From contig DATETJ010000002.1 in NCBI GenBank assembly GCA_035283685.1, forward strand, positions 62,001 to 126,000: a DNA stretch of 64,000 nucleotides. Direction: 5' to 3'. This DNA is from Candidatus Bathyarchaeia archaeon. GTDB lineage: Archaea; Thermoproteota; Bathyarchaeia; Bathyarchaeales; Bathyarchaeaceae. The notes under the pieces are model-generated. The model worked only from the letters and a program-made list of their open reading frames with translations. It did not search any database and was not told the DNA's origin. Of this stretch, positions 25,593-62,400 are shown one piece after another. Each line of letters opens with the position of its first letter. The stretch's first letter is position 1. The position numbers and the translations under genes are program-made.

Positions 25593-26414
25593 ATGCTCGG
25601 TCAATATTTGATTGCTTTTAGGGAAGTTTTGGAAGCCGCTTTGATAACGTCCATTGTTTTGGCTTATTTAGCCCGAACTGAGCGGAAGTCTCTCTCTCGG
25701 TATGTTTGGTACGGTGTCTTTTCTGCGGTAGCTGCCAGTGTGGTGTTGGGCGCTGTTATTTGGGTGGCTTATGGCACGCTTTCAGGACCAGTTCAGAAGT
25801 TGTTCGAGGGTGCTGCTGCTTTGGTTGCTGTGGCTGTTTTGTCTTCTATGATTTATTGGATGGCTACTAAGGGTAAGGAGCTTAAGGCAGAGGTGGAGAA
25901 GCGGGTTGAGTCTATGGCGACTCGTGGTGCAGCTCTTGGCTTGGTGTCGTTTGCGTTTGTGGCAGTGTTTCGAGAAGGCTTGGAAACCGTGCTCTTCTTG
26001 ACTCCTTTCTTGGTGACTGACGCAGTGGCCACGGTCACAGGTTTATTGTTGGGCACGTTAACTTCGGTGGTGTTGGCTTACGCGATCTTTTTTGCGGGCA
26101 TGAAGATTAGCATCAGGAGGTTCTTTTATTTCACGAGCATTTTGTTGGTGTTGTTGGCTGGCGGTTTGGCTGGCTACGGAGTGCACGAACTAATTGAGTA
26201 CACGGGCTCATCGGCTTGGGGTTGGCTGGGGCAGAACGCATATGCATTAAACATCGCTTTGGATAATCTGTTGCATCATAAGGGCATAATAGGCTCAATA
26301 TTTGCAGTGATGTTTGGCTACACGGTTAAAGCCGAATGGGCTAGAGTGCTAATTCATATAACTTACCTTGTAGTTGCCATTCCGCTCGTTGTCTGGGTTT
26401 ACCGAAAGAAATGA
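25593..26414 (+). CDS. FTR1-family iron permease
   Basis: 273 aa, about seven membrane helices. The two iron-binding motifs of the family are present: REVLEA in helix 1 (AFREVLEAALIT) and REGLE in the middle (VFREGLETVLFL). Related to yeast Ftr1 and bacterial EfeU, which move iron into the cell, usually with an oxidase or other partner. Shares an operon with the DtxR regulator. A hairpin at 26440-26473 follows. The last 277 nt have a diverged, frameshifted partial copy at 32988-33266 and a shorter scrap near 35484. Confidence 0.9.
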   Translation: MLGQYLIAFREVLEAALITSIVLAYLARTERKSLSRYVWYGVFSAVAASVVLGAVIWVAYGTLSGPVQKLFEGAAALVAVAVLSSMIYWMATKGKELKAEVEKRVESMATRGAALGLVSFAFVAVFREGLETVLFLTPFLVTDAVATVTGLLLGTLTSVVLAYAIFFAGMKISIRRFFYFTSILLVLLAGGLAGYGVHELIEYTGSSAWGWLGQNAYALNIALDNLLHHKGIIGSIFAVMFGYTVKAEWARVLIHITYLVVAIPLVVWVYRKK

Positions 26415-26492: not shown

Positions 26493-26530
26493 ATATTTAA
26501 TACTTTGCTATGGATTATGTGTATACGAGG
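26493..26530 (+). promoter_or_regulatory. Promoter and ribosome binding site of the pilin-like cluster
   Basis: TATA-like atatttaata at 26493-26502 would start transcripts near 26520. gaggagtg (26523-26530) lies 6 nt before the ATG at 26537. This decides the start of the first gene against the in-frame ATG at 26510, which would be at or before the transcript start. Confidence 0.5.
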
Positions 26531-26536
26531 AGTGCA

Positions 26537-27424
26537 ATGATACAGTCTGAACCTTGTTCAAGAGGATTTCTTCGAAACACTAGAGCAGTTAGTCCCGCGG
26601 TGTCCACAGTTATTCTAACAGGCACCATTGTTGCCCTACTGAGTGTGACATCAGTTTACGTTAATAATGTTCTCTGGGCAAGAGCCGCGGAGGCCGATTT
26701 CAGCTCGGCGAAGCAGTTTATGCAGACGATGGGGCTTCAGATTGATGAGGTTGCATGGACGGTAGGACGCAAAGCTACGGTTCGATATTCAAGTGCATAT
26801 GGCGGGGTTGATTTCTTGCCGTCAGCCTTGAACTACGCCGTTTATGTCAAGACACAGGGCAATACAGACTATGAGTTACTTGCCTCATACGATGTAGGCG
26901 TTCTGCTTTTCAACATGCCAGTGTCAAAATACTCTTTGTACGATAGTTACTATGAGTTAGTCTACCCGGCCTCTTCCACAAATCTTACTTTAACTGGCGT
27001 ATCTGCTCCTGTTGCCCGTGTGTTTGGCGTTGAGAAATTGTCGCCTCCAATGAGTGATGGAAGCTTTGTCAGAATTGTGGTCATGCCTTCTGTGAGGTCT
27101 CTTTTCGCTAATATGACGACAACCGGCAGGGCGACTTATTATACGAGGTTATACTTGCCAGTTCTTGCAGAGGGCTTCGCTAAAGGCTCACATCAGTCGG
27201 TGACTTTTGCCGGGAATTCGGTTGCCTCAATGACCAAGAATCGGGTCACAAGCGTTAAGGTAACCGTGGATTTTCCCGCCAAGACTTCTCAGCAAGGCTT
27301 CGATTCTTCATTTTTCCACTTGCCCAGCCTTGAGCAAGTGATTGACGTCCCATCTGGTTACAGTGATTCTCAGCTTGAATTCTACGTCGGAGAGGTAAAA
27401 GTGGATCTCGGCGTCCACTCATGA
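26537..27424 (+). CDS. Archaeal type IV pilin-like secreted protein
   Basis: 295 aa from ATG at 26537. The N-terminus carries RNTRAVSPAVSTVILTGTIV, the class III signal pattern of archaeal pilins (basic leader, RAVSP, then a hydrophobic helix), processed by an FlaK/PibD-type peptidase. The rest is a beta-rich outer domain with NLT and NMT sequons. Much longer than a typical major pilin (120-180 aa), so it may be a minor or adhesive subunit. First of six co-directional genes; 15 nt before the next. No assembly ATPase or platform protein is in the cluster. Confidence 0.75.
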   Translation: MIQSEPCSRGFLRNTRAVSPAVSTVILTGTIVALLSVTSVYVNNVLWARAAEADFSSAKQFMQTMGLQIDEVAWTVGRKATVRYSSAYGGVDFLPSALNYAVYVKTQGNTDYELLASYDVGVLLFNMPVSKYSLYDSYYELVYPASSTNLTLTGVSAPVARVFGVEKLSPPMSDGSFVRIVVMPSVRSLFANMTTTGRATYYTRLYLPVLAEGFAKGSHQSVTFAGNSVASMTKNRVTSVKVTVDFPAKTSQQGFDSSFFHLPSLEQVIDVPSGYSDSQLEFYVGEVKVDLGVHS

Positions 27425-27439
27425 TAAGGAGGCATTTGT

Positions 27440-27913
27440 TTGACAAACGTAGCTATTGAGGCAGTGATATTGACGCCCATGCTAGTGATTCAAATCATAT
27501 TATTCCCCTTCGTGGCAAACACGATGGCATCTAACTGGGAAAACGCTACTCGTGACGTCACACTTAAAGAACTGGCTTCTCAAATGGCGAGTACGATTCA
27601 GCAATTGTATCTTTCCCTGAATCAACCAGAGGTTTCGGCTGGAAACATCACTCAAGCCTCAACTTTTCCCAAAGAGATTGCTGAGCACACATATAATGCA
27701 ACAGGCTTGTTGGAAGCTTCCTTTCAACTTGGTTTTGGTAAGGTTTTGTTCCTCACCGTCACCTTGCAGAAACTCGGAAATACTATTATGGTTCAAACCC
27801 CGTTAGGGCCCAACGTTTTGTGGAATGAGAAATCTCTCTTTGAAAGTTCATCTGCAAATGCTTCGATTAAGGTTCAGAAGTTCGTGAATGGCACTCTTCT
27901 TTTCTCATTTTGA
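27440..27913 (+). CDS. TadE/pseudopilin-like membrane-anchored protein
   Basis: 157 aa from TTG at 27440 with a strong ribosome binding site, aaggagg, 7 nt before. A very short leader (MTNVAIEAVI) is followed by a hydrophobic helix (LTPMLVIQIILFPFVANT); the E at position 7 recalls the Glu5 of pilins and TadE proteins. Outer domain of about 120 aa with several NXS/T sequons (NIT, NAT, NAS, NGT). No precise family recognised. Probably a minor pseudopilin. Confidence 0.65.
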   Translation: MTNVAIEAVILTPMLVIQIILFPFVANTMASNWENATRDVTLKELASQMASTIQQLYLSLNQPEVSAGNITQASTFPKEIAEHTYNATGLLEASFQLGFGKVLFLTVTLQKLGNTIMVQTPLGPNVLWNEKSLFESSSANASIKVQKFVNGTLLFSF

Positions 27914-27928
27914 TGGTCTTGGTCGAAA

Positions 27929-29158
27929 ATGACTGGTGTAACGATCGATCATATGGTTTCCCTCGTCGTTCTCATAGCGGTGCTCATGGTTTCCATGGGC
28001 GCCTTTGGGCAGATCATAGGCGCGGCAGTCACATATCAGCAGAACCATGAAGTCTCCATGAAGGCAGCTGAGCTTGCCAACGCGTTGCTGTTGAGTCCGG
28101 GGAGTCCCGATTCGTGGGGTCGAAGTGACGGCCTTCCATTGGCATTCGGGCTTCAAGATTCAGACTCGGGAGGATACTCGCTGGATGCTTTCGCTCTCTC
28201 AAGGTTGTCGTCTAGATTGCCTCTTGTCTATTATGGCAAAACGGGTCTGTGGTACAGTAACAACAGTTTGGGCGGAGGGACACTGCTTGTTCCAATGGCC
28301 AAAGCTGTAAACTATACCACTACGGCAAGATTGCTCGGTGTTGAGGGGTCTTATGCCTTCAGGCTAACAGTCGCGCCGACGTTGAATGTCTCTCTTTCTG
28401 AACTCAACCTGAACCCATTAACGGTGAAAGTTGAAGTCAGAGGCCTCACAGGCGTGGTCAGCGACGCGACTTTGAATTACTTTGCTTATCAAGTAGTTCC
28501 CCAAGTTGGTCAAGCTCCTTCGATTCAAACGATTTCAGGCACCAGCCGGACTGATCTGGCAGGTTCTGCAACGCTGGAATTCTCATCCGTGGACGGCTCG
28601 CGCTATGCCTACTCTGTTGTCATTCATGCACGTGTTGGCGGTCTTTCCGGTGTTGGCTACCGATATCGCGATATTATTGCTAACAACAAAATAGTTCCCT
28701 TGGTTGAAGACTTTGAGAATAGATCTGTTCTGCTTGCTCACAGTTGGGACCTGGGCAATTTTCCGTCGCCGGTTGAGGTTCTGTATTTCAACGCGACTTT
28801 TCTCTCTTTAGCTCAGGACTTTTGGTTGAGTGAGATTCGAATGGCTGATTCTGGCGGTTTTGTCAGAACTGGGCAGGTTAATTATGGCGTAGGTTTTGAC
28901 CACGTTCGAGTGCAGATTCCGACACAAAACGCAGGGATTTTGATTGTTGCATACAGTTCGGGAGACTACTCTGGGATAGTGACAATGCCTTGGGGAATCA
29001 GTGTTCTCGGGTTTTCTGCGATATTCGGGGGCGACACAAGTCAGGCTGATTGGGTTGCTGTTGAACTTAGGCAGGTGTCAATCAGCAAGATCTCGTATCA
29101 AGCCAAAGTGGCTGTCTGGAAGACATCGGGCTATCAGCCTGCGAGGTATACGCCATGA
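27929..29158 (+). CDS. Pilin-like surface protein
   Basis: 409 aa. N-terminal helix MVSLVVLIAVLMVSMGAFG within the first 30 residues, then a large beta-rich outer domain. The short leader and helix resemble pseudopilins; the outer domain matches nothing I recognise. Stop and next start overlap as ATGA (29155-29158), so it is translationally coupled to the next gene. 15 nt after its upstream neighbour. Confidence 0.65.
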   Translation: MTGVTIDHMVSLVVLIAVLMVSMGAFGQIIGAAVTYQQNHEVSMKAAELANALLLSPGSPDSWGRSDGLPLAFGLQDSDSGGYSLDAFALSRLSSRLPLVYYGKTGLWYSNNSLGGGTLLVPMAKAVNYTTTARLLGVEGSYAFRLTVAPTLNVSLSELNLNPLTVKVEVRGLTGVVSDATLNYFAYQVVPQVGQAPSIQTISGTSRTDLAGSATLEFSSVDGSRYAYSVVIHARVGGLSGVGYRYRDIIANNKIVPLVEDFENRSVLLAHSWDLGNFPSPVEVLYFNATFLSLAQDFWLSEIRMADSGGFVRTGQVNYGVGFDHVRVQIPTQNAGILIVAYSSGDYSGIVTMPWGISVLGFSAIFGGDTSQADWVAVELRQVSISKISYQAKVAVWKTSGYQPARYTP

Positions 29159-30486
29159 TGCGAACAATCGAGATTTTCATGGTCGCTATAATCCTTTTCG
29201 CGGCTTTTGCGATCACTATGCAATTTGCTGTATTGCCGTCGCCCAGTAATGTCTCAGGTCGGAATTTGCGTGAGCTTGCTCTGTCAACGATTGAGACTCT
29301 CGATGTAGACGACGATCTGACGAGAACGGTTTTCAGCAACACTTCAGATCCGTCTTGGGCGCGTCTCCAGAATGCACTCGCTGCATCTCTTCCCCCAAAT
29401 ATCGTGTACAACCTCACGGTGTACGATATTGTAACATCCTCCGGGGGAGTCGTCACCTACAGCTTGGTCAAGTCTTTCTCAAACTCCAGAGGCGATCTAG
29501 GAGTTGATTCTGACGCCTCGTCCTACGTGGTGGAGTCGTCGAATGTCAAGTTTGCTACGACACCTCAGAAAGTCGGGGAAAGCACCGGAAGGAACATAAC
29601 TCTCTATATCTTGAATTGCAGCGATGCAAACGGCTGGTGGATTACTGGTTACACTGCACAAAGCCTAGCCTCTGATCTGCGCGATCTGCTTTCACCATAC
29701 TTCCAGAGCACTGTTCTTGTAAATTCCACTAGTCAGTTGGGTCTCATTTTGAACGGTACTGCGCTTAGTGGAGAAAGGCTGCAAGATGCTGTGGTGATAA
29801 ATACTTTCGGCGAAGCCGTGCCGATTCCTGCAGGGTATTATACGACTCAGGGTTATGATGCAAGCCGAGGATCCTATGCAAGATACGCGTACATTTTGGG
29901 GCAAAGAGTGAATCAGTACAATTGGACGTGGGTTAGCATTGTGGGTTATCCCTTCTTCTACGTTACGAATACTTTGACGTTTTCAAGCAGTCAAAACGGT
30001 TGGGGCTTGTACGGGATGCGGCAAGTGGGGTCTGCTGGTCTTAACTCTTTTCTGCGGGGTCTAAACCTTCAGTCATATTTGTACAATAGCCAATGGATAG
30101 CGGGAAGTCCAGGTGTTGTTCGGTTTACGTGGAATGCGTCCTATTACTCGAATTACTATGGTGTCTATCCAGCTAGTTATCAGACGTCGACCAGAGCATT
30201 GCCTACATCTATTTTGAGCACGTACAATTTGCGGGTTGCACCGAACAGCTACATATTTCAGGTAGTCAATAACTGGATTGCAGGAGCTACGTTCACTCAT
30301 CGAGGTCAGGGCAATACCATTCGAGGCTCGTTTACTGCGATAGGATTGACGAGAACGCCGGATGTTAGAATCACAGCCCTGGGTCTTCTTCAGCATTACC
30401 GCCCAATCATCTACAAGTCGGAGTCTGGGGCAAGCGGCACGTCTAGGCTCGTTGTGCTACAGCTTGCAGAGCAAGGAGGTGCTTAA
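29155..30486 (+). CDS. Membrane-anchored pilin-like surface protein
   Basis: 443 aa. Starts ATG ATG (29155 or 29158), then the helix IFMVAIILFAAFAITMQFAV and a long extracytoplasmic region rich in Tyr, Asn and Ser with many sequons (NVS, NTS, NLT, NIT, NCS, NST, NGT, NWT, NAS). No catalytic motif seen. A ribosome binding site for the next gene (aaggagg, 30473-30479) lies at its 3' end. Likely a glycosylated surface component. Confidence 0.65.
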   Translation: MMRTIEIFMVAIILFAAFAITMQFAVLPSPSNVSGRNLRELALSTIETLDVDDDLTRTVFSNTSDPSWARLQNALAASLPPNIVYNLTVYDIVTSSGGVVTYSLVKSFSNSRGDLGVDSDASSYVVESSNVKFATTPQKVGESTGRNITLYILNCSDANGWWITGYTAQSLASDLRDLLSPYFQSTVLVNSTSQLGLILNGTALSGERLQDAVVINTFGEAVPIPAGYYTTQGYDASRGSYARYAYILGQRVNQYNWTWVSIVGYPFFYVTNTLTFSSSQNGWGLYGMRQVGSAGLNSFLRGLNLQSYLYNSQWIAGSPGVVRFTWNASYYSNYYGVYPASYQTSTRALPTSILSTYNLRVAPNSYIFQVVNNWIAGATFTHRGQGNTIRGSFTAIGLTRTPDVRITALGLLQHYRPIIYKSESGASGTSRLVVLQLAEQGGA

Positions 30487-30540
30487 TCAATATCTCACAG
30501 TTCCGCCTGCAACAAAGGGCAGTTTTCGACGATTGCAGCA

Positions 30541-32418
30541 TTGCTCGTAGCCATAATAATGGTCAGCGCCGTGATCGCAACGTATGCGAATATTAGGAAT
30601 CTTCCGTTTCAAGAGCCGCCTAAGGTTTTGAGTGCGCTTGAGGAAATGAACCTGTCACTCAAAGGGCTTATGCAATATGCTGTTGGATATTATGGGTCGA
30701 TTTTGCAGGTGACTGGTAACGTTAGTTACGCGAAGGATTTGACTTTGAAGTATCTTCGAAGTGGATTCGTTTATATCGCTCAGTCCAAACCTTCGTGGAA
30801 TCCGTCGTTTGACATAAAAGATTCCACTTTCTCCACCCGCTGGTACGAGCCGACGAGTTATAGTGTGGGGAATCTTTCGGTGACGTACTCGTTGTCGGGT
30901 TTGGGAATATCTCAAGTGACATATGAGATTTCATCACTTCTCAAAGTGGATGTTTTAGACACAGTGGCTGGGCAAGCAAGGGTTCTCGTCACAGTCGAGG
31001 ATGGCAAAGCAGATCTCAAGCTAGGCAGAGCGAACTTCTTTTTCTACAGGTTTTCGGACTCGGTTTGGAAGACGGTCAATCCTGCTGTTGATCCCATTGT
31101 CCATTCGAACGGAACCTACGTGTTGCAGATTCCTTCGGGAGTGGACCAGAGCTTGTACTTGATGAAAGTTTATGATTCGAGAGGCATTACAACCACTGCT
31201 TTCTTCTCTAACTCGCGGAAACCGCAGTACGCCTTAACGTTTTCTTGGAATGCCAGTCTCTATTCGTCGTTAGCAGGGGACACGCTTGTTGTGGAGTCCT
31301 TGCAGAATGGCACTTTGCGGTGGCTTGGGTCAAACCTTCAACTGTCGACTCAAGGAAAGCCTATTCTCCCGATTCCTGTGAGGGCTTTGCGTGTGAACCA
31401 GACTATTAATGGAGTTGACCGTGAAGTGCCTTTTCAGGTTGAAGATTGGGGATCAGATTACAGAGTTCCGTTGGGTTTGACAAGTAATGCGAGTCTTTTC
31501 GGCAATAGGCAAATGATTGTGTTTCTGGCTAATCATAATGTTCAGAAGGTTACGTTGTGGTGGAGTGGGCGGGATACAGTGACTCAAACGCATTACGCCT
31601 TTGTTAACAGGTATTTCGCTGGTGATGATCCTGCTTCTAGGCGGTTGACAAATGGGATTCTGACTTTGACTGTCAGTGCTTCGTACGACACGATAACGTC
31701 TTCGATTGCTGGCGGTGGTATTACTAGCACGGCGAGTTTCATGCGGCTGAACAATTATAATCCTATTTACGGGTCTAGTCCGGCTTATGTCATTCATCAT
31801 GGCATAGTCAGAGACATAATTCAGCAAGAGGCTGAATGGTCAAATGGGGCTCCAAACAGTCCTAACGTGTACTCGCAGATGTACTTCACGCTTCCAGCTA
31901 ATGCAACGTATTACACGTATGCGTTGAGAACGGTTTTTGTTGATTCTTTGCAGAGCAGGACGCTGACGGATCTGTGTGCGATTCGGCTTTCAGTTTCAGG
32001 TGGGCAGCAGCTCACGGAGAATGGAACGAGCGCGGGCTATCCTGTGTCTTCGACTGCTACGGGTTTGTTCTACAATTTTTCTGGTTTTCTGAATGGTTGG
32101 GCTCATCATTGGAGCGAGTTCATTTCTGGAAGTTCTGGCGCAGGGCTGATGTTCAGGGACAACGGTAACGAAAAACTGTACTTGTTCGACAGTGTTGCGG
32201 GTCAGATGACGGGAGGGGTTAATGTTGCTGGTGCCAGTCGGGTAATTGAGTTTAATCCAGTGGGGCGGTCTCAGTTTCCTGCGGCTTTCACGTATTCTCT
32301 TGACGTTACGTGGCATGGTGCTGTTGTTACATTCAACGGTGAGCCAATCTATCCAACCGTTGGCACTGTGGGTTTGTGGGTTCTTGTTGAGCATCCGCCA
32401 GTGATTGCGGTCAGCTAG
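30541..32418 (+). CDS. Large pilin-like surface protein, true start probably upstream
   Basis: 625 aa from TTG at 30541, but this start cuts a hydrophobic helix. Reading upstream in the same frame to the stop at 30484-30486 gives KGQFSTIAALLVAIIMVSAV, a complete prepilin-like signal (KG then a hydrophobic run), with no ATG, GTG or TTG. The ribosome binding site aaggagg (30473-30479) points to about 30487-30491, where an in-frame ATA (30490) is the nearest candidate. So either a rare start codon, a frameshift from GTG at 30479, or a sequencing error. The large outer domain is beta-rich with many sequons. No known family. Confidence 0.65.
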   Translation: MLVAIIMVSAVIATYANIRNLPFQEPPKVLSALEEMNLSLKGLMQYAVGYYGSILQVTGNVSYAKDLTLKYLRSGFVYIAQSKPSWNPSFDIKDSTFSTRWYEPTSYSVGNLSVTYSLSGLGISQVTYEISSLLKVDVLDTVAGQARVLVTVEDGKADLKLGRANFFFYRFSDSVWKTVNPAVDPIVHSNGTYVLQIPSGVDQSLYLMKVYDSRGITTTAFFSNSRKPQYALTFSWNASLYSSLAGDTLVVESLQNGTLRWLGSNLQLSTQGKPILPIPVRALRVNQTINGVDREVPFQVEDWGSDYRVPLGLTSNASLFGNRQMIVFLANHNVQKVTLWWSGRDTVTQTHYAFVNRYFAGDDPASRRLTNGILTLTVSASYDTITSSIAGGGITSTASFMRLNNYNPIYGSSPAYVIHHGIVRDIIQQEAEWSNGAPNSPNVYSQMYFTLPANATYYTYALRTVFVDSLQSRTLTDLCAIRLSVSGGQQLTENGTSAGYPVSSTATGLFYNFSGFLNGWAHHWSEFISGSSGAGLMFRDNGNEKLYLFDSVAGQMTGGVNVAGASRVIEFNPVGRSQFPAAFTYSLDVTWHGAVVTFNGEPIYPTVGTVGLWVLVEHPPVIAVS

Positions 32419-32439
32419 GTGGTTGCGGATGGGCTGTTT

Positions 32440-32985
32440 ATGAGACAGGGAATATTCGTGAAAGGCTTGGTTCCTCTACTTATTGGCGCAGTCCTCATAG
32501 TATGTGGTGTTCTGACTGGAAGAAGTGAGACTAGCGTTGTCAGCGAGAATGCGTTTGACGGTTCGTCTCCTTACGGCTTCCTTGGCAATCACGAATACAA
32601 GGCAACAGCTTACTTACTTCCTGGAGCTTACGAGCTGCGTTACAATTTTTCATCAACTGAAGCGATCAGCGAGTTCTATGTGAGCATTTTCGACCCCGAC
32701 GGCTATGAGGTAAAATCCATTTATGGTCCCCCAGCCTCGTATGAATATCAAAATGCAAACCTGACCTTTGAGACACAAAAAACTGGTCAACATACTCTCA
32801 TTCTGGGTGGTAGATGGATGTCAGCTCAGGTTGATCTCCACAGGCTGCTGCAATCAGCCAAGGTGGTGTATCCTTTTGAAATCGTCTTTTACTTGGGCGT
32901 GCCACTTTTCGTAGGCGGCTTTACTGTAAGCATTTCTGGAATTCTGATGAAGAACAAACCCACTCACTGGCTTGATAAACTCTGA
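32440..32985 (+). CDS. Membrane protein with N- and C-terminal helices, end of pilin-like cluster
   Basis: 181 aa from ATG at 32440; a GTG at 32419, directly after the previous stop, would add 7 residues. Helix near the N-terminus (LVPLLIGAVLIVCGVLTG), an outer beta-rich domain (about 35-140, with AYLLPGAYELRYNFSS and FETQKTGQHTLILGG), and a C-terminal helix (FEIVFYLGVPLFVGGFTVSI). The outer part looks like a small emp24/CARDB-type beta sandwich, which is a guess. Last gene of the cluster; the ftr1 remnant begins 2 nt after its stop. Confidence 0.6.
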   Translation: MRQGIFVKGLVPLLIGAVLIVCGVLTGRSETSVVSENAFDGSSPYGFLGNHEYKATAYLLPGAYELRYNFSSTEAISEFYVSIFDPDGYEVKSIYGPPASYEYQNANLTFETQKTGQHTLILGGRWMSAQVDLHRLLQSAKVVYPFEIVFYLGVPLFVGGFTVSISGILMKNKPTHWLDKL

Positions 32986-32987
32986 CA

Positions 32988-33266
32988 TATTTCTGCTAGT
33001 GTTGTTGGCTGGCGGCTTAGCAGGTTACGGAGTGCACGAGCTAGCTGGGTACACGGGCGCAGACGCGTGGGGGCTTGCTGGGGCAGAAAGCATACGTGTT
33101 GAATATTGCTTCAGATAACCCGTTGCATCACAAGGGTGTGATAGGTTCAATATTTGCGGTGATGTTCGGCTACTCCGTCAGCGCCGAGTGGTCACGAATC
33201 ATAACACATCTCGCCTATCTCATTGTGGCACTACCACTGATGCTGTGGGTTTATCGGAAGAAATAG
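32988..33266 (+). pseudogene. Frameshifted, truncated FTR1 remnant
   Basis: Aligns over about 279 nt with the last 277 nt of the intact FTR1 gene (26138-26414), up to both stop codons (both end WVYRKK). An extra base near 33068 (tgggggcttgctgggg against tggggttggctgggg) breaks the frame: before it the frame reads LLAGGLAGYGVHELAGYTGA, after it KAYVLNIASDNPLHHKGVIGSI. The N-terminal two thirds, including both iron motifs, are absent. Same strand as the intact gene, with the pilin-like cluster in between. Confidence 0.88.
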
Positions 33267-33365: not shown

Positions 33366-35288
33366 TTATGGAGTTGTTTGTCCCAAGTTTGTGTTGAGTA
33401 TTCGTATGTCAAATATGTTTACGATTCCATCGTTGTTGAAGTCGGTGTTTGCATCATAGCCGGTCCAGTTGACGCCGACCCTGTGTAGGTCCACTACACT
33501 GATTGCGCCGTCGTTATTTGCATCACCTGCATAATTCACGAAGACAACGTCCTCGCATTCAAACGGGGTCCCATCAAACAGTCTACCAGCTAGAGTCAAA
33601 GTAAAGTTGCCATATCGAATGCTTTGATTGTGATATATCCATGACTCCACTGAGGCTCTGTCAAACTTAACCATGCGCTCCAGAAAACCATCGTTATCGT
33701 AATCCGATAGGTACTCGCTGGAATTTGTCACGAAGCTATACTGGGGATCGAGAACAGGTGAAATGGTTCCGGTTAGCAAGATTCCAGTAGCATTGATGTC
33801 TGAAGCGTTGTAGCCTTGAAGAGGCTGAATGTAAGCGGTGAGCCATCTCCAATCAGTTCTCAAACTAAGATTCTGCCAATCTCCTGTTAAACGCGCACGA
33901 GCGGTTCCCGACTGTATTGCTCTAATCTCAGCCATTATGGCAGACTGTGCGGGTGCGTTCCACCATGAAGTGTCTATATAATCGGGAAAAAGGGATTTGT
34001 CTCTAGTGTAACGTTCAAAATCTTGTCCTGCAAGCCACTGTTCGGGTTTTGACCTTGCCTTGTCTCCTAAAGCGATTAGCTGTGACATCCAAGCTAGTTT
34101 TTGTTCCAACGGGTCTGTTATGTTGCTGCCTCCTCTAGGAGACGACGCAATAAACCCGTGTCTGTTCTCCCATCCAGTGTTTAGCAGAATTCTCTTGTTC
34201 ATTACTGTGGCAAGGGCTCTCATGTCGGCGATCATATTTCTTCCCGCGATTCTAAGAGTGCCGTTGTAGCCTGTGCCGACTTTGTCGAAGTTCTTATTGT
34301 TAAACCAAGCTTCTGTAACCCATGATATGTCGCGTTCAGACCATGTTGACGGAACCTCAGATGCTAACACTAGCGGAAGCCACCAGCTGACGCTTACGAA
34401 ATCCAAGTCTCCGAGGTAAGTCGCTCCGGAGATTCCCTTCCTGTCCGAGGTTATTGGTGCTTCAGGATTAAGCTGCTTAACTGCGTTATAGCCTAGTCCT
34501 TCGTCGTCGAACCATCCTGCGTGGTCCACGGTGAGCAGTATGTCTTTGCCAGCGTTCTGGAAGATCTGTCTTGTTTCATTAATCATGGTGAACCATTGTG
34601 AATTGTGGTTCCAAGTGAAGTCTGCTGTTGGGTAAACCATCTCCAATGCCAACATGAATATGTCGCCGCTGACAAAATTGGGGTTTGAGGCAAGAAACTG
34701 CGCTGTGGGTCGCAAAACATTGTCCATGTAATATTGCAGGTACAATTCTCCATCGAACAGCGGGAAATCTGACTCTCTTGCTCCCCACGCGAACACTCGA
34801 GTATTATCAGTTATAGTGTTTCTGTTGGTTTGATCCCATGCAACCGAAATGCTGAATTCCATGTTAAATCCAGCGTTGTGTATTCTTTCAGCCGCAGATG
34901 GTCCATAGATTAGTGGGTCGCCGAAGCCGAAATACCATCTTTGCCAGTTTTGCATAACTCTGTTCTGCTCATAGTCGGAAGAACCCAAATGCGGAGGGAC
35001 AACGATTCCTCCTGTATCGTTGTCTATCGCGTATGTTTCCCAGATTCGCATCTGAACGTGCGTTATCTCTCCGTTTGGCGAAGCTTGCCTCAAGTCGTCG
35101 AGAGCCAACTGCCAAATGTCCGCTTCAAATTGACTGTCGAAATCTGGTACAAGAATATCCGCCATAAAGTCAGCTATTCTGAATTGAAACGTGCCAACAG
35201 AACCAGAAGTTACAGCTGCTGGACTAGGAGCGAGGACTAGCGCTGAAATAAGAAGGAAACCAACCAGTGCCGTAACTTTGGAATTCAA
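33366..35288 (-). CDS. Secreted TIM-barrel glycoside-hydrolase-like protein with C-terminal dockerin
   Basis: 640 aa. Signal peptide (KVTALVGFLLISALVLAP, A-rich cleavage region). The main domain (about 35-440) has a glycosidase-like pattern: strands ending in acidic residues such as MLALEMVYP, DILLTVDHAGWFDDE and RILLNTGWENRHG, many Trp, and FVSVSWW. The exact GH family is not certain. The C-terminus (about 590-640) is a type I dockerin: two EF-like calcium loops, DANNDGAISVVDL and DFNNDGIVNIFDI, about 25 residues apart. Dockerins normally bind cohesins; no cohesin is in the window. Probably a surface or secreted polysaccharide-degrading protein. Transcribed towards the ftr1 remnant. Confidence 0.75.
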   Translation of the reverse strand: MNSKVTALVGFLLISALVLAPSPAAVTSGSVGTFQFRIADFMADILVPDFDSQFEADIWQLALDDLRQASPNGEITHVQMRIWETYAIDNDTGGIVVPPHLGSSDYEQNRVMQNWQRWYFGFGDPLIYGPSAAERIHNAGFNMEFSISVAWDQTNRNTITDNTRVFAWGARESDFPLFDGELYLQYYMDNVLRPTAQFLASNPNFVSGDIFMLALEMVYPTADFTWNHNSQWFTMINETRQIFQNAGKDILLTVDHAGWFDDEGLGYNAVKQLNPEAPITSDRKGISGATYLGDLDFVSVSWWLPLVLASEVPSTWSERDISWVTEAWFNNKNFDKVGTGYNGTLRIAGRNMIADMRALATVMNKRILLNTGWENRHGFIASSPRGGSNITDPLEQKLAWMSQLIALGDKARSKPEQWLAGQDFERYTRDKSLFPDYIDTSWWNAPAQSAIMAEIRAIQSGTARARLTGDWQNLSLRTDWRWLTAYIQPLQGYNASDINATGILLTGTISPVLDPQYSFVTNSSEYLSDYDNDGFLERMVKFDRASVESWIYHNQSIRYGNFTLTLAGRLFDGTPFECEDVVFVNYAGDANNDGAISVVDLHRVGVNWTGYDANTDFNNDGIVNIFDIRILNTNLGQTTP

Positions 35289-47798: not shown

Positions 47799-49652
47799 TT
47801 GGTTAAGAGAGCTGCATTTGTCGTTCTGCTGGTATTTGCGCTTGCGGTGGCCATCTCTAACCCAGGAACGGTGTTAGCTCAACCCAAGACATGGATAGTG
47901 GACGATGACGATCCAGCGGACTTTCAAAGAATACAAGATGCGCTAAATGCGGCAAGCTCTGGCGACACAGTTGCCGTAAAAGCTGGAACGTACAGGGAGA
48001 CGCTGCTTGTGAACAAGGCAGTTTCCATTATTGGAGAAAACAAGGAAACCACTGTTGTGGATGGAGGCGGTGTAGGGTCTGTCGTCGAAATAAGGACAAG
48101 CAACGTTGTTCTGACCAATTTTACAGTGAGTAACGCGGGCAGGACATGGGGACCACCGCCAGGACTGGGCGCTCCAGATAGTTGCATACTCGTAGACAGC
48201 GTTTCTGACGTTCTTATTGCAAATAGCATTCTCACCGATGCCGCAGTGATTGTGTGGATTGCTCAGTCATCCTTTGTTAATGTCAGCGACAACGTTGTCT
48301 TAAGCGGAGTTTATGGTGGCATAATTGGTTACGCGTCTTCAGGTCTTTCATTAACCCGCAACCTTGTGGACAACGGTGGGCTGATGGGAATGCACTTGGA
48401 CGGTTACAGCAACGACAACACAATAGCGGAGAACACGGTCATGAATAATGTGGAGGGCTTGGAACTGGAATCAGGCTCCGCAAGAAATTGGATTGAAGAC
48501 AATATCTTCACAAACAATAACGTAAGCGTAGTCCTTAACAAGTGTGGCAGATTCAACGTCTTTCGACGAAACACTTTGCTCAATAGTCTGTACAATCTGG
48601 TGGTCGTTGGCTACACTCTTGAGAGTTTCTTGCAGGACATTGATTCATCAAACCTTGTGGATGGGAAGCCAGTTTACTATTTGACTAACCTCCACGGTCA
48701 GGTCGTCAGTCCGACAAGCTATCCGGATGCAGGTTATCTTGCGATCGTGAATGGCACAGATGTCACGGTTAGAGACTTCAGCTTTGTGAGCAATGGTGAC
48801 GGTGTGTTACTGGCATACGCTAGGGACTGCACTTTAGTTAACATGACAGTTAGGGGAAACCGAGGACCATTGTTATGGGGAGGGCTTACTTTCTACAGCT
48901 CTGGTTACAACAGGCTGATCTACAGCTATGTTGGCAACAATAGTCTTGCCTTGTCCTTTTATCGCTCCGATTGGAATGAACTGTACGAAAACTACTTCGT
49001 TGACAACGAAAGGCAAGTGCTTTTTGACTTCCTCAGTCCTTTCTCGAATGAGTCATCGGGATATTTCTCAAGAAACACGTGGGACAAAGGATTCAGGGGC
49101 AATTATTGGAGCGACTACATCGGCACTGATGAGAACAAAGACGACATTGGAGATACGCTTTATGTCGTAGGCGTTAACAACGTGGATCATTATCCGCTTA
49201 TGGTTCAGTGGCCTGTCATAGACATAGCGCCACCAGACATTTTCATAATATCTCCTAGCGAACTCCAATACCCAAGCTATACAATTGACTCGACATCAAT
49301 AACTGTTATTTGGGAAGGCTGGGATGATGTCTCCGGCATAATACGATACGAAGTTAGACTCGACGGCGGCGAATGGACTCAGGCGGATGCAAACACAAGT
49401 ATCACTTTCGCAGGGCTGAGGGATGGGCTCCACACAATAGACATTAGAGCTTTTGACGCCGCAGGAAACATTAGACAGGAATCTTTCGAGTTTCGCGTGA
49501 ACACTGTGACTAGCCTATTTCTTTCCTATGTTCTCCAGGTGGTCATCGTGGTAGTCGTTATCGCCGTGGTTATAGCGGCTTTGTATTTCATTGGGAAGAG
49601 ATATCTGCCTAGACCAAGGCTGAGAAAGACCGAGCGCAGATTAGTGCGCTGA
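47799..49652 (+). CDS. Surface protein with NosD-like beta-helix, Ig-like domain and C-terminal anchor
   Basis: 617 aa from TTG at 47799. Signal peptide ending near VLAQ, then TWIVDDDDPADFQRIQDAL, which opens a right-handed parallel beta-helix (PbH1/NosD-type repeats to about 460, with GNYWSDYIGTDENKDDIGDT near its end). About 475-575 is an Ig-like domain (RYEVRLDGGEWTQAD; DAAGNIRQE), then one helix (LSYVLQVVIVVVVIAVVIAA) and a basic tail. Probably displayed on the outer cell surface, binding or modifying carbohydrate. No catalytic residues assigned. Confidence 0.82.
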   Translation: MVKRAAFVVLLVFALAVAISNPGTVLAQPKTWIVDDDDPADFQRIQDALNAASSGDTVAVKAGTYRETLLVNKAVSIIGENKETTVVDGGGVGSVVEIRTSNVVLTNFTVSNAGRTWGPPPGLGAPDSCILVDSVSDVLIANSILTDAAVIVWIAQSSFVNVSDNVVLSGVYGGIIGYASSGLSLTRNLVDNGGLMGMHLDGYSNDNTIAENTVMNNVEGLELESGSARNWIEDNIFTNNNVSVVLNKCGRFNVFRRNTLLNSLYNLVVVGYTLESFLQDIDSSNLVDGKPVYYLTNLHGQVVSPTSYPDAGYLAIVNGTDVTVRDFSFVSNGDGVLLAYARDCTLVNMTVRGNRGPLLWGGLTFYSSGYNRLIYSYVGNNSLALSFYRSDWNELYENYFVDNERQVLFDFLSPFSNESSGYFSRNTWDKGFRGNYWSDYIGTDENKDDIGDTLYVVGVNNVDHYPLMVQWPVIDIAPPDIFIISPSELQYPSYTIDSTSITVIWEGWDDVSGIIRYEVRLDGGEWTQADANTSITFAGLRDGLHTIDIRAFDAAGNIRQESFEFRVNTVTSLFLSYVLQVVIVVVVIAVVIAALYFIGKRYLPRPRLRKTERRLVR

Positions 49653-61752: not shown

Positions 61753-62400
61753 TTGCCTGAACGATTCAAGTGGGAACAAACTGAACGTCCCGAGCCCTTG
61801 AACAGTAGAGTTAAGGGAGCCTTTCATCCATCAACATCGCTAAGACCACGCTTACAGTTAGCAATTAACCGCACAGAGGCACAGGCTCAGAAGCTAGATC
61901 AAACCTCACAACGACTTGCTGAACGCGACAAGACCATATTTGCGAAGATTGTCGAAGCCTACCAGAAACATGACGTGCAACACGCCAACGTGTTCTCCAG
62001 TGAACTTGCGGAAATCCGAAAAACCGAGAAAACAGTGATGCATGCAAGACTCGCCTTAGACCAAATAGTCCTGCGACTGAGAACAGTAACGGAGCTAGGC
62101 GACATGGTCGGCGCCCTTGCACCAATCGTAGGCGTGCTAGGCGGCATAAGAACTGCGATAACTGGAGTCTTGCCCGACGCTGGCAAAGAACTCGAACAAA
62201 TCGGAACAATGCTAAACGGAATAATCATGGACGCCGGCCAAAGCAGCGGACTAACACTGAACTTCGGCGAAGCAAACGAAGACGCCAAAGGCATCCTAGC
62301 AGAAGCAGCAACCGTAGTCGAACAAAGAATGAAAGACAAATTCCCAGACCTACCAGGCGCAACGCCAACAGCTACAGACAAAGCACAAGGCAAAACCTAA
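61753..62400 (+). CDS. ESCRT-III/CdvB-like (Snf7) protein
   Basis: 215 aa from TTG at 61753. The core helices match archaeal CdvB: LRPRLQLAINRTEAQAQKLD, RLAERDKTIFAKIVEAYQKHD, VFSSELAEIRKTEKTV and LDQIVLRLRTVTELGDMVGAL, then GKELEQIGTMLNGIIMDAG as a possible terminal helix. Polymers of this family constrict membranes in cell division and vesicle budding in Thermoproteota. The MIM/winged-helix part of full CdvB is missing at the C-terminus, where there is only a disordered tail. No CdvA or CdvC (Vps4) gene nearby. Confidence 0.85.
   Translation: MPERFKWEQTERPEPLNSRVKGAFHPSTSLRPRLQLAINRTEAQAQKLDQTSQRLAERDKTIFAKIVEAYQKHDVQHANVFSSELAEIRKTEKTVMHARLALDQIVLRLRTVTELGDMVGALAPIVGVLGGIRTAITGVLPDAGKELEQIGTMLNGIIMDAGQSSGLTLNFGEANEDAKGILAEAATVVEQRMKDKFPDLPGATPTATDKAQGKT

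Follow-up and report, generated by a model that had tools for sequence, protein, structure and literature searches.

A displaced five-component minor-pilin set in a Bathyarchaeia genome and the distant type IV pilus motor that probably assembles it

How can a group of pilin-like proteins reach the cell surface when no assembly machinery is encoded beside it? The question is raised by a locus in a 64,000-nucleotide stretch of the genome of Candidatus Bathyarchaeia archaeon (GCA_035283685.1, contig DATETJ010000002.1, forward-strand positions 62,001 to 126,000; hereafter the window), in which six co-directional open reading frames (ORFs), P1 to P6, occupy positions 26510-32985 with spacings of -4 to ~60 nt. 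No ATPase, platform protein or prepilin peptidase was found among the neighbours of this cluster in the window, and the initial annotation had described an orphan six-gene pilin-like surface cluster that was either assembled in trans or part of an undescribed system. We consider it likely that P1-P5 make up a complete set of five minor pilins for an archaeal type IV pilus (T4P), displaced from its usual place, and that a motor at about 538 kb on the same contig assembles both this set and a second, shorter one.

More than 30 loci have P1-P5 in the same gene order, with identities that mostly range from 28 to 63% within Bathyarchaeia, so these genes are more than chance ORFs. Homologues were sought in an order-wide survey of 116 genomes (completeness floor 85%) and in a scan of public genomes that returned 25 loci from Bathyarchaeota, Marsarchaeota, two archaeal metagenome-assembled genomes (MAGs) and one Thermoproteota MAG. 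Identities range from 26 to 54% for P1 across 35 loci, and for P4 from 50 to 62% within Bathyarchaeia and from 29 to 37% to Marsarchaeota and Thermoproteota; short forms of P4 (139-157 amino acids, aa) stop after the first domain. Each of P1-P5 has a single N-terminal hydrophobic helix and none has a credible match in Pfam or NCBIfam. Class III signal sites are clear only in P1 (TRA/VSPAVST) and P5 (NKG/QFSTIAA), while in P2-P4 the hydrophobic stretch begins almost at the N-terminus, near the mature helix, and the class III pattern is present in part. The pilin-like description thus holds for P1-P5 but not for P6, which has two transmembrane (TM) segments (residues ~9-36 and ~149-177), has no homologue in the 116 genomes of the order and is missing from every homologous locus. 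The outer domains had also been called sequon-rich; the enrichment is mild (31 sequons observed against ~17 expected from shuffles), and individually only P2 reaches significance (P = 0.045).

The separation of the set from a motor proved peculiar to the window genome. P5 is present in 53 of the 116 genomes and the set-linked type of motor ATPase (A-type) in 69, with both in 49; in 45 of these 49, P5 lies 5.6-8.0 kb downstream of the A-type motor on the same strand. Contig ends split the two in three of the other four genomes, and only in the window genome are they truly apart, by ~445 kb on one contig. The order ATPase-TadC-P1-P2-P3-P4-P5 is complete in many loci, with an ATPase of ~545 aa and a TadC-like platform of ~566 aa directly upstream of the set, and in two Marsarchaeota-type loci motor genes lie on either side of it. 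A peptidase and a PilA-like pilin similar to those of the window genome adjoin the motor loci of seven relatives. The peptidase type was confirmed with Pfam in one locus (L006), and two relatives of the pilin gave no Pfam match.

ATPases of the T2SSE type are encoded at three places in the window genome, including contig C5 and position 616 kb of the window's own contig (C2). The third (C2:537859-539457) is orthologous to the set-linked motor: it shares 65-77% identity with the A-type ATPases of other Bathyarchaeia and only 43-49% with the other two ATPases of its own genome. It is followed by a platform gene, mostly 58-73% identical to platforms of other Bathyarchaeia, and then by five shorter pilin-like genes (277, 155, 387, 157 and 263 aa), the short set, as distinct from the long set of the window. 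Since motor and window set lie on one 634-kb contig, the motor is not a binning artefact, and contamination or mis-binning is unlikely. An A24 prepilin peptidase scoring above the cut-off is encoded at C12:43240-43587, adjoined by a 156-aa PilA-like pilin (KKGISPILATLLLIV) and a CBS-domain-like protein. All assembly parts exist in the window genome, and the reported absence of ATPase, platform and peptidase is true of the neighbourhood but not of the genome.

Profile comparisons (hhalign) assign the proteins of the two sets to the same five slots. Long- and short-set proteins pair along the diagonal with probabilities of 99.6% (P1-P1'), 97.0% (P2-P2'), 99.8% (P3-P3'), 99.0% (P4-P4') and 99.6% (P5-P5'), and off-diagonal values are at most ~5% except for P5 and P4' (64%). 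The set at the 616-kb motor matches in slots 1, 3 and 4 (88-98%) and weakly in slot 5, and P3 matches the P3 of the set designated B at 97.6%. Profiles of three haloarchaeal sets were also compared with the long and short slots. A T4P locus on a haloarchaeal plasmid has the order ATPase-TadC-DUF7287-DUF7288-DUF7261-DUF7266-DUF7289, as does Haloferax mediterranei, and annotated type IV pilin genes lie near the haloarchaeal five-gene loci. Most single-slot scores are weak (2-40%, with slot 1 reaching 94%), and the argument therefore rests on a consistent one-to-one pattern, in which slots 1 to 5 have as fixed best partners DUF7289, DUF7266, DUF7287, DUF7288 and DUF7261, respectively, in 10 of 10 rows. 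The P1 of one short set (locus L078) matches DUF7289 just under the cut-off (1.3e-5). Haloarchaeal T4P loci thus appear to hold the same five slots in a different order (3-4-5-2-1 rather than the 1-2-3-4-5 of the window set); DUF7287 is probably the counterpart of P3, albeit on a weak score, and the pairings of P2 with DUF7266 and P4 with DUF7288 are weak. A literature search for DUF7266, DUF7288 and DUF7289 by name found none. A plasmid of Salinigranum marinum provides a second case of an unlinked set: a five-gene pilin set with neither ATPase nor TadC alongside (L105, 5486-10334), in which the slot-2 gene is enlarged to 681 aa with an annotated PKD domain, followed by a von Willebrand factor A protein.

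Because of the motor linkage in relatives and the slot match, we place the window set within a described kind of archaeal T4P minor-pilin set, in an unusual displaced arrangement. Known archaeal T4P loci (Makarova, Koonin and Albers 2016, PMC4858521; haloarchaeal clade 2, 4C) likewise have a motor pair followed by several pilin-like genes; among them are motors paired with two or more pilin sets, PilA-like major pilins that stand alone and pilin sets that are unlinked. They differ from the window locus in that P4 and P5 have large outer domains (443 and ~640 aa) without a Pfam match, and in that the window set is displaced while the motor holds a second set. Archaeal motors paired with different pilin sets have been shown or proposed for PilB-C (PMC4858521; PMC6491452), and in the Myxococcus Kil pilus one machine serves four interchangeable tip complexes of paralogous minor pilins (PMC12075869). 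The latter resembles the present case in its paralogous sets at separate loci, its big modular outer domains and its tip variation (KilLMN), but Kil is a bacterial tight adherence (Tad) system with three tip proteins and an adapter, and the window set has five proteins and an archaeal FlaI/TadC motor.

The long set would probably use the 538-kb motor. This agrees with the surface filament or adhesin complex assembled in trans that the initial annotation had offered as one of two readings, and which is the better supported of them. The A24 peptidase on contig C12 would trim those prepilins that have a cleavable signal; P1-P5 would pack through their N-terminal helices in the membrane and prime pilus growth; a separate PilA-like major pilin would form the shaft; and P1-P5 would stay at the filament tip, with P4 and especially P5 outermost and ligand-binding. 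According to whether the short or the long set was in use, two kinds of pilus tip could then form on one machine. Use of this motor in trans, priming, tip position and binding to glycans or surfaces are inferred, the packing, priming and tip position from anatomy and precedent. Bacterial priming complexes (FimU-PilVWXE-PilY1, GspHIJK) are likewise encoded in small operons for pilin-like proteins of unequal size, a parallel by analogy only, and neither P4 nor P5 has a sequence or fold match to them.

Several points weigh against this explanation. No direct evidence links the 538-kb motor to the displaced set, and two other motors exist (on C5 and at C2:616 kb); the short set adjoins the motor and may be its sole client, with the long set idle; the tip position is drawn from bacterial T4P, Tad and type II secretion systems; P5 is without a standard start codon, which could reflect early decay, the use of a rare ATA start or an error in the sequence; and the case concerns one genome, known from its sequence.

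The relatives show sets exchanged behind a constant motor: one A-type motor is followed by a long set, a short set or a reduced set. Long and short sets are mutually exclusive in the sampled genomes of the order, with the window genome the sole exception among 116. Short sets occur in two families, in four genomes of the window genome's own family, f1 (itself included), and in three of family f6, where the motors with short sets fall, in the tree, among the long-set carriers of f6 itself. One further genome (G019) has its short set ~1 Mb from the motor on the contig map, the reverse of the window case, and a Thermoproteota MAG has one motor followed in tandem by a long and then a short five-gene set (L028, 1841-15806). 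Three genomes of the order have the same motor type and then only two or three small pilin-like genes (loci L072-L074).

The outer proteins vary in sequence and in length at a much higher rate than the motor, which stays unchanged, and this suggests a role at a pilus tip or as an adhesin. Genomes G012, G020 and G022 have identical ATPase and TadC proteins, and their P5 proteins measure 799, 1173 and 1108 aa, respectively; P3-P5 of G012 and G022 are only 59-60% identical despite 100% identical motors. The P4 and P5 of G022 are closer to those of G017 (78 and 82%, with ATPases 93% identical) than to those of G012 (60 and 59%, with ATPases 100% identical), a pattern in the sequences that indicates recombination of the outer genes. 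P5 relatives carry inserts of ~100-500 aa. Most of these sit around residues 220-270 or at the C-terminal end, and Pfam recognises no domain above cut-off in the inserts. Gain of modules is also seen outside P5: in locus L009 (4052-6916), the P1 homologue has 954 aa in place of the usual ~300.

An alternative interpretation is that the set forms a separate sugar-binding surface assembly, like the bindosome of the Sulfolobales, or a secretion pseudopilus, and not the tip of a long pilus. Its attraction lies partly in the motor, whose ATPase and platform are homologous to those of the bindosome (BasE/BasF) and of Ups pili and match the BasE/BasF models as well as archaellum FlaI and UpsF, all below the curated cut-offs, and partly in P5. 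The predicted structure of P5 (predicted local distance difference test score, pLDDT, 87; predicted template modelling score 0.82) has long N-terminal helices and then an all-beta outer part. This part resembles sandwich domains known from carbohydrate-active enzymes, specifically the beta-supersandwich found in GH38 mannosidases, GH36 galactosidases and PL26 lyases (E values as low as 7e-7 at probability 1.0, but a template modelling score of only 0.2-0.36). The model hints at contact with carbohydrate; the fold does not imply an enzyme. The claim that the outer domains resemble nothing known stands for P4 (pLDDT 83), for which no PDB match and no known fold or family was found, but not fully for P5. 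Yet no substrate-binding protein was recognised in the loci, many relatives have a PilA-like pilin and a peptidase next to the locus, and in haloarchaea the equivalent loci have annotated type IV pilin genes close by; we consider this interpretation unlikely. A further difference from the Sulfolobales bindosome and Ups pili is that the pilin sets show no family match. An archaellum was rejected, as no archaellin genes or FlaG/F/H/I/J operon were recognised as neighbours in the listed loci and the ATPase scores 373 bits against a FlaI cut-off of 550.

It is also improbable, in our judgement, that the displaced set is a relic, no longer assembled since the short set replaced it at the motor locus. 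The co-occurrence of both sets in a single genome of the survey would fit such a history, as would a pseudogene at the cluster edge and the start of P5. The TTG at 30541 is too late as a start and removes the pilin signal. Followed from the stop at 30484, the frame gives ...NKGQFSTIAALLVAII, relatives read KKGQFSIIAAALVAIV in the same region, and since the conserved KGQF motif is encoded at 30514-30525, the frame must start 5' of that TTG. No ATG, GTG or TTG lies between the stop and the motif; an ATA at 30490, which follows a strong ribosome-binding site (AAGGAGGTG), is the most plausible start, albeit a rare one, unless the base is an assembly error. Against decay, all five frames are intact at full length, residues invariant across phyla are kept (checked in P4 and P5), the branch of the window genome in the long-set tree is not unusually long, and co-direction, tight spacing and the ribosome-binding site before P5 are retained.

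The edges of the segment record something of its past. An intact gene for an FTR1-type iron permease (25593-26414) abuts the upstream edge and a decayed FTR1 remnant begins a few bases past P6, which suggests that the segment inserted into one of two FTR1 copies, the second; their identity of only 74% marks both copies as old. Relatives with IdeR-FTR1 have different downstream genes, and the FTR1 locus yielded no clean empty site. In a concatenated tree the long set of the window genome has the sets of the same family as its sister group (support 0.999), and the motor of this genome groups with the short-set carriers of that family, so an old history within the family is more likely than a recent import. 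The identity of P5 to that of a genome of family f6 (G047, 62-63%) had hinted at recent transfer from another family, which the tree and a GC content that matches the window (cluster 0.478, window 0.483) leave unsupported.

That the filament system is undescribed and independent of known T4P motors, as the distance of the window set from any motor gene might suggest, is very hard to sustain, because across the order, as in the Thermoproteota MAG, a T4P motor immediately precedes the homologous sets, and motor genes flank the set in the Marsarchaeota-type loci. Homologues beside a known pilus operon were the finding that the initial annotation had named as refuting, and they are seen in those 45 of 49 genomes.

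Table 1 Coordinates of the pilin-like cluster and of the gene remnant at its downstream edge (positions in the window).
Feature	Position	Strand	Size	Description
P1 (slot 1)	26510..27424	+	304 aa, or 295 aa if ATG 26537 (start in the initial annotation)	class III pilin-like
P2 (slot 2)	27440..27913	+	157 aa	small pilin-like; position and length kept in 34 loci
P3 (slot 3)	27929..29158	+	409 aa	pilin-like; 28-43% identity within Bathyarchaeia
P4 (slot 4)	29155..30486	+	443 aa	pilin-like, large alpha/beta outer domain
P5 (slot 5)	30490..32418	+	~625-643 aa, start uncertain	KGQF-type pilin-like, large all-beta outer domain
P6	32419..32985	+	188 aa	two-TM orphan; outside the conserved set
FTR1 remnant	32991..33266	+		decayed 3' part of an FTR1-type iron permease gene, frameshifted; matches the intact FTR1 at its 3' end (74% DNA identity, 274 bp)

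Outside the cluster (Table 1), the window encodes a 640-aa secreted protein on the minus strand (33366-35288), with two C-terminal DxNxDG-type repeats that look like a dockerin, and a 617-aa secreted protein (47799-49652) in which NosD-like parallel beta-helix repeats and a C-terminal TM anchor were recognised by eye.

We tentatively extend these comparisons to a broader idea, which we hold to be possible though less probable than the account of the window genome itself: that archaeal T4P, from Bathyarchaeia and Marsarchaeota to haloarchaea, may have in common an ancient complex of five proteins, for priming or at the tip, that acts as an exchangeable cassette, with two sets served in trans by one motor, sets replaced behind a constant motor and P5 gaining outer modules. 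If true, archaea would have swappable pilus tips. For the complex that primes or tips bacterial pili, no named archaeal counterpart was found in the literature searched, and the gene families concerned are annotated merely as DUFs or hypothetical proteins; the five-slot set offers concrete candidates. A genome in which two sets accompany a single cognate motor would be a natural test of exchangeable archaeal pilus tips, comparable to the Kil system of Myxococcus.

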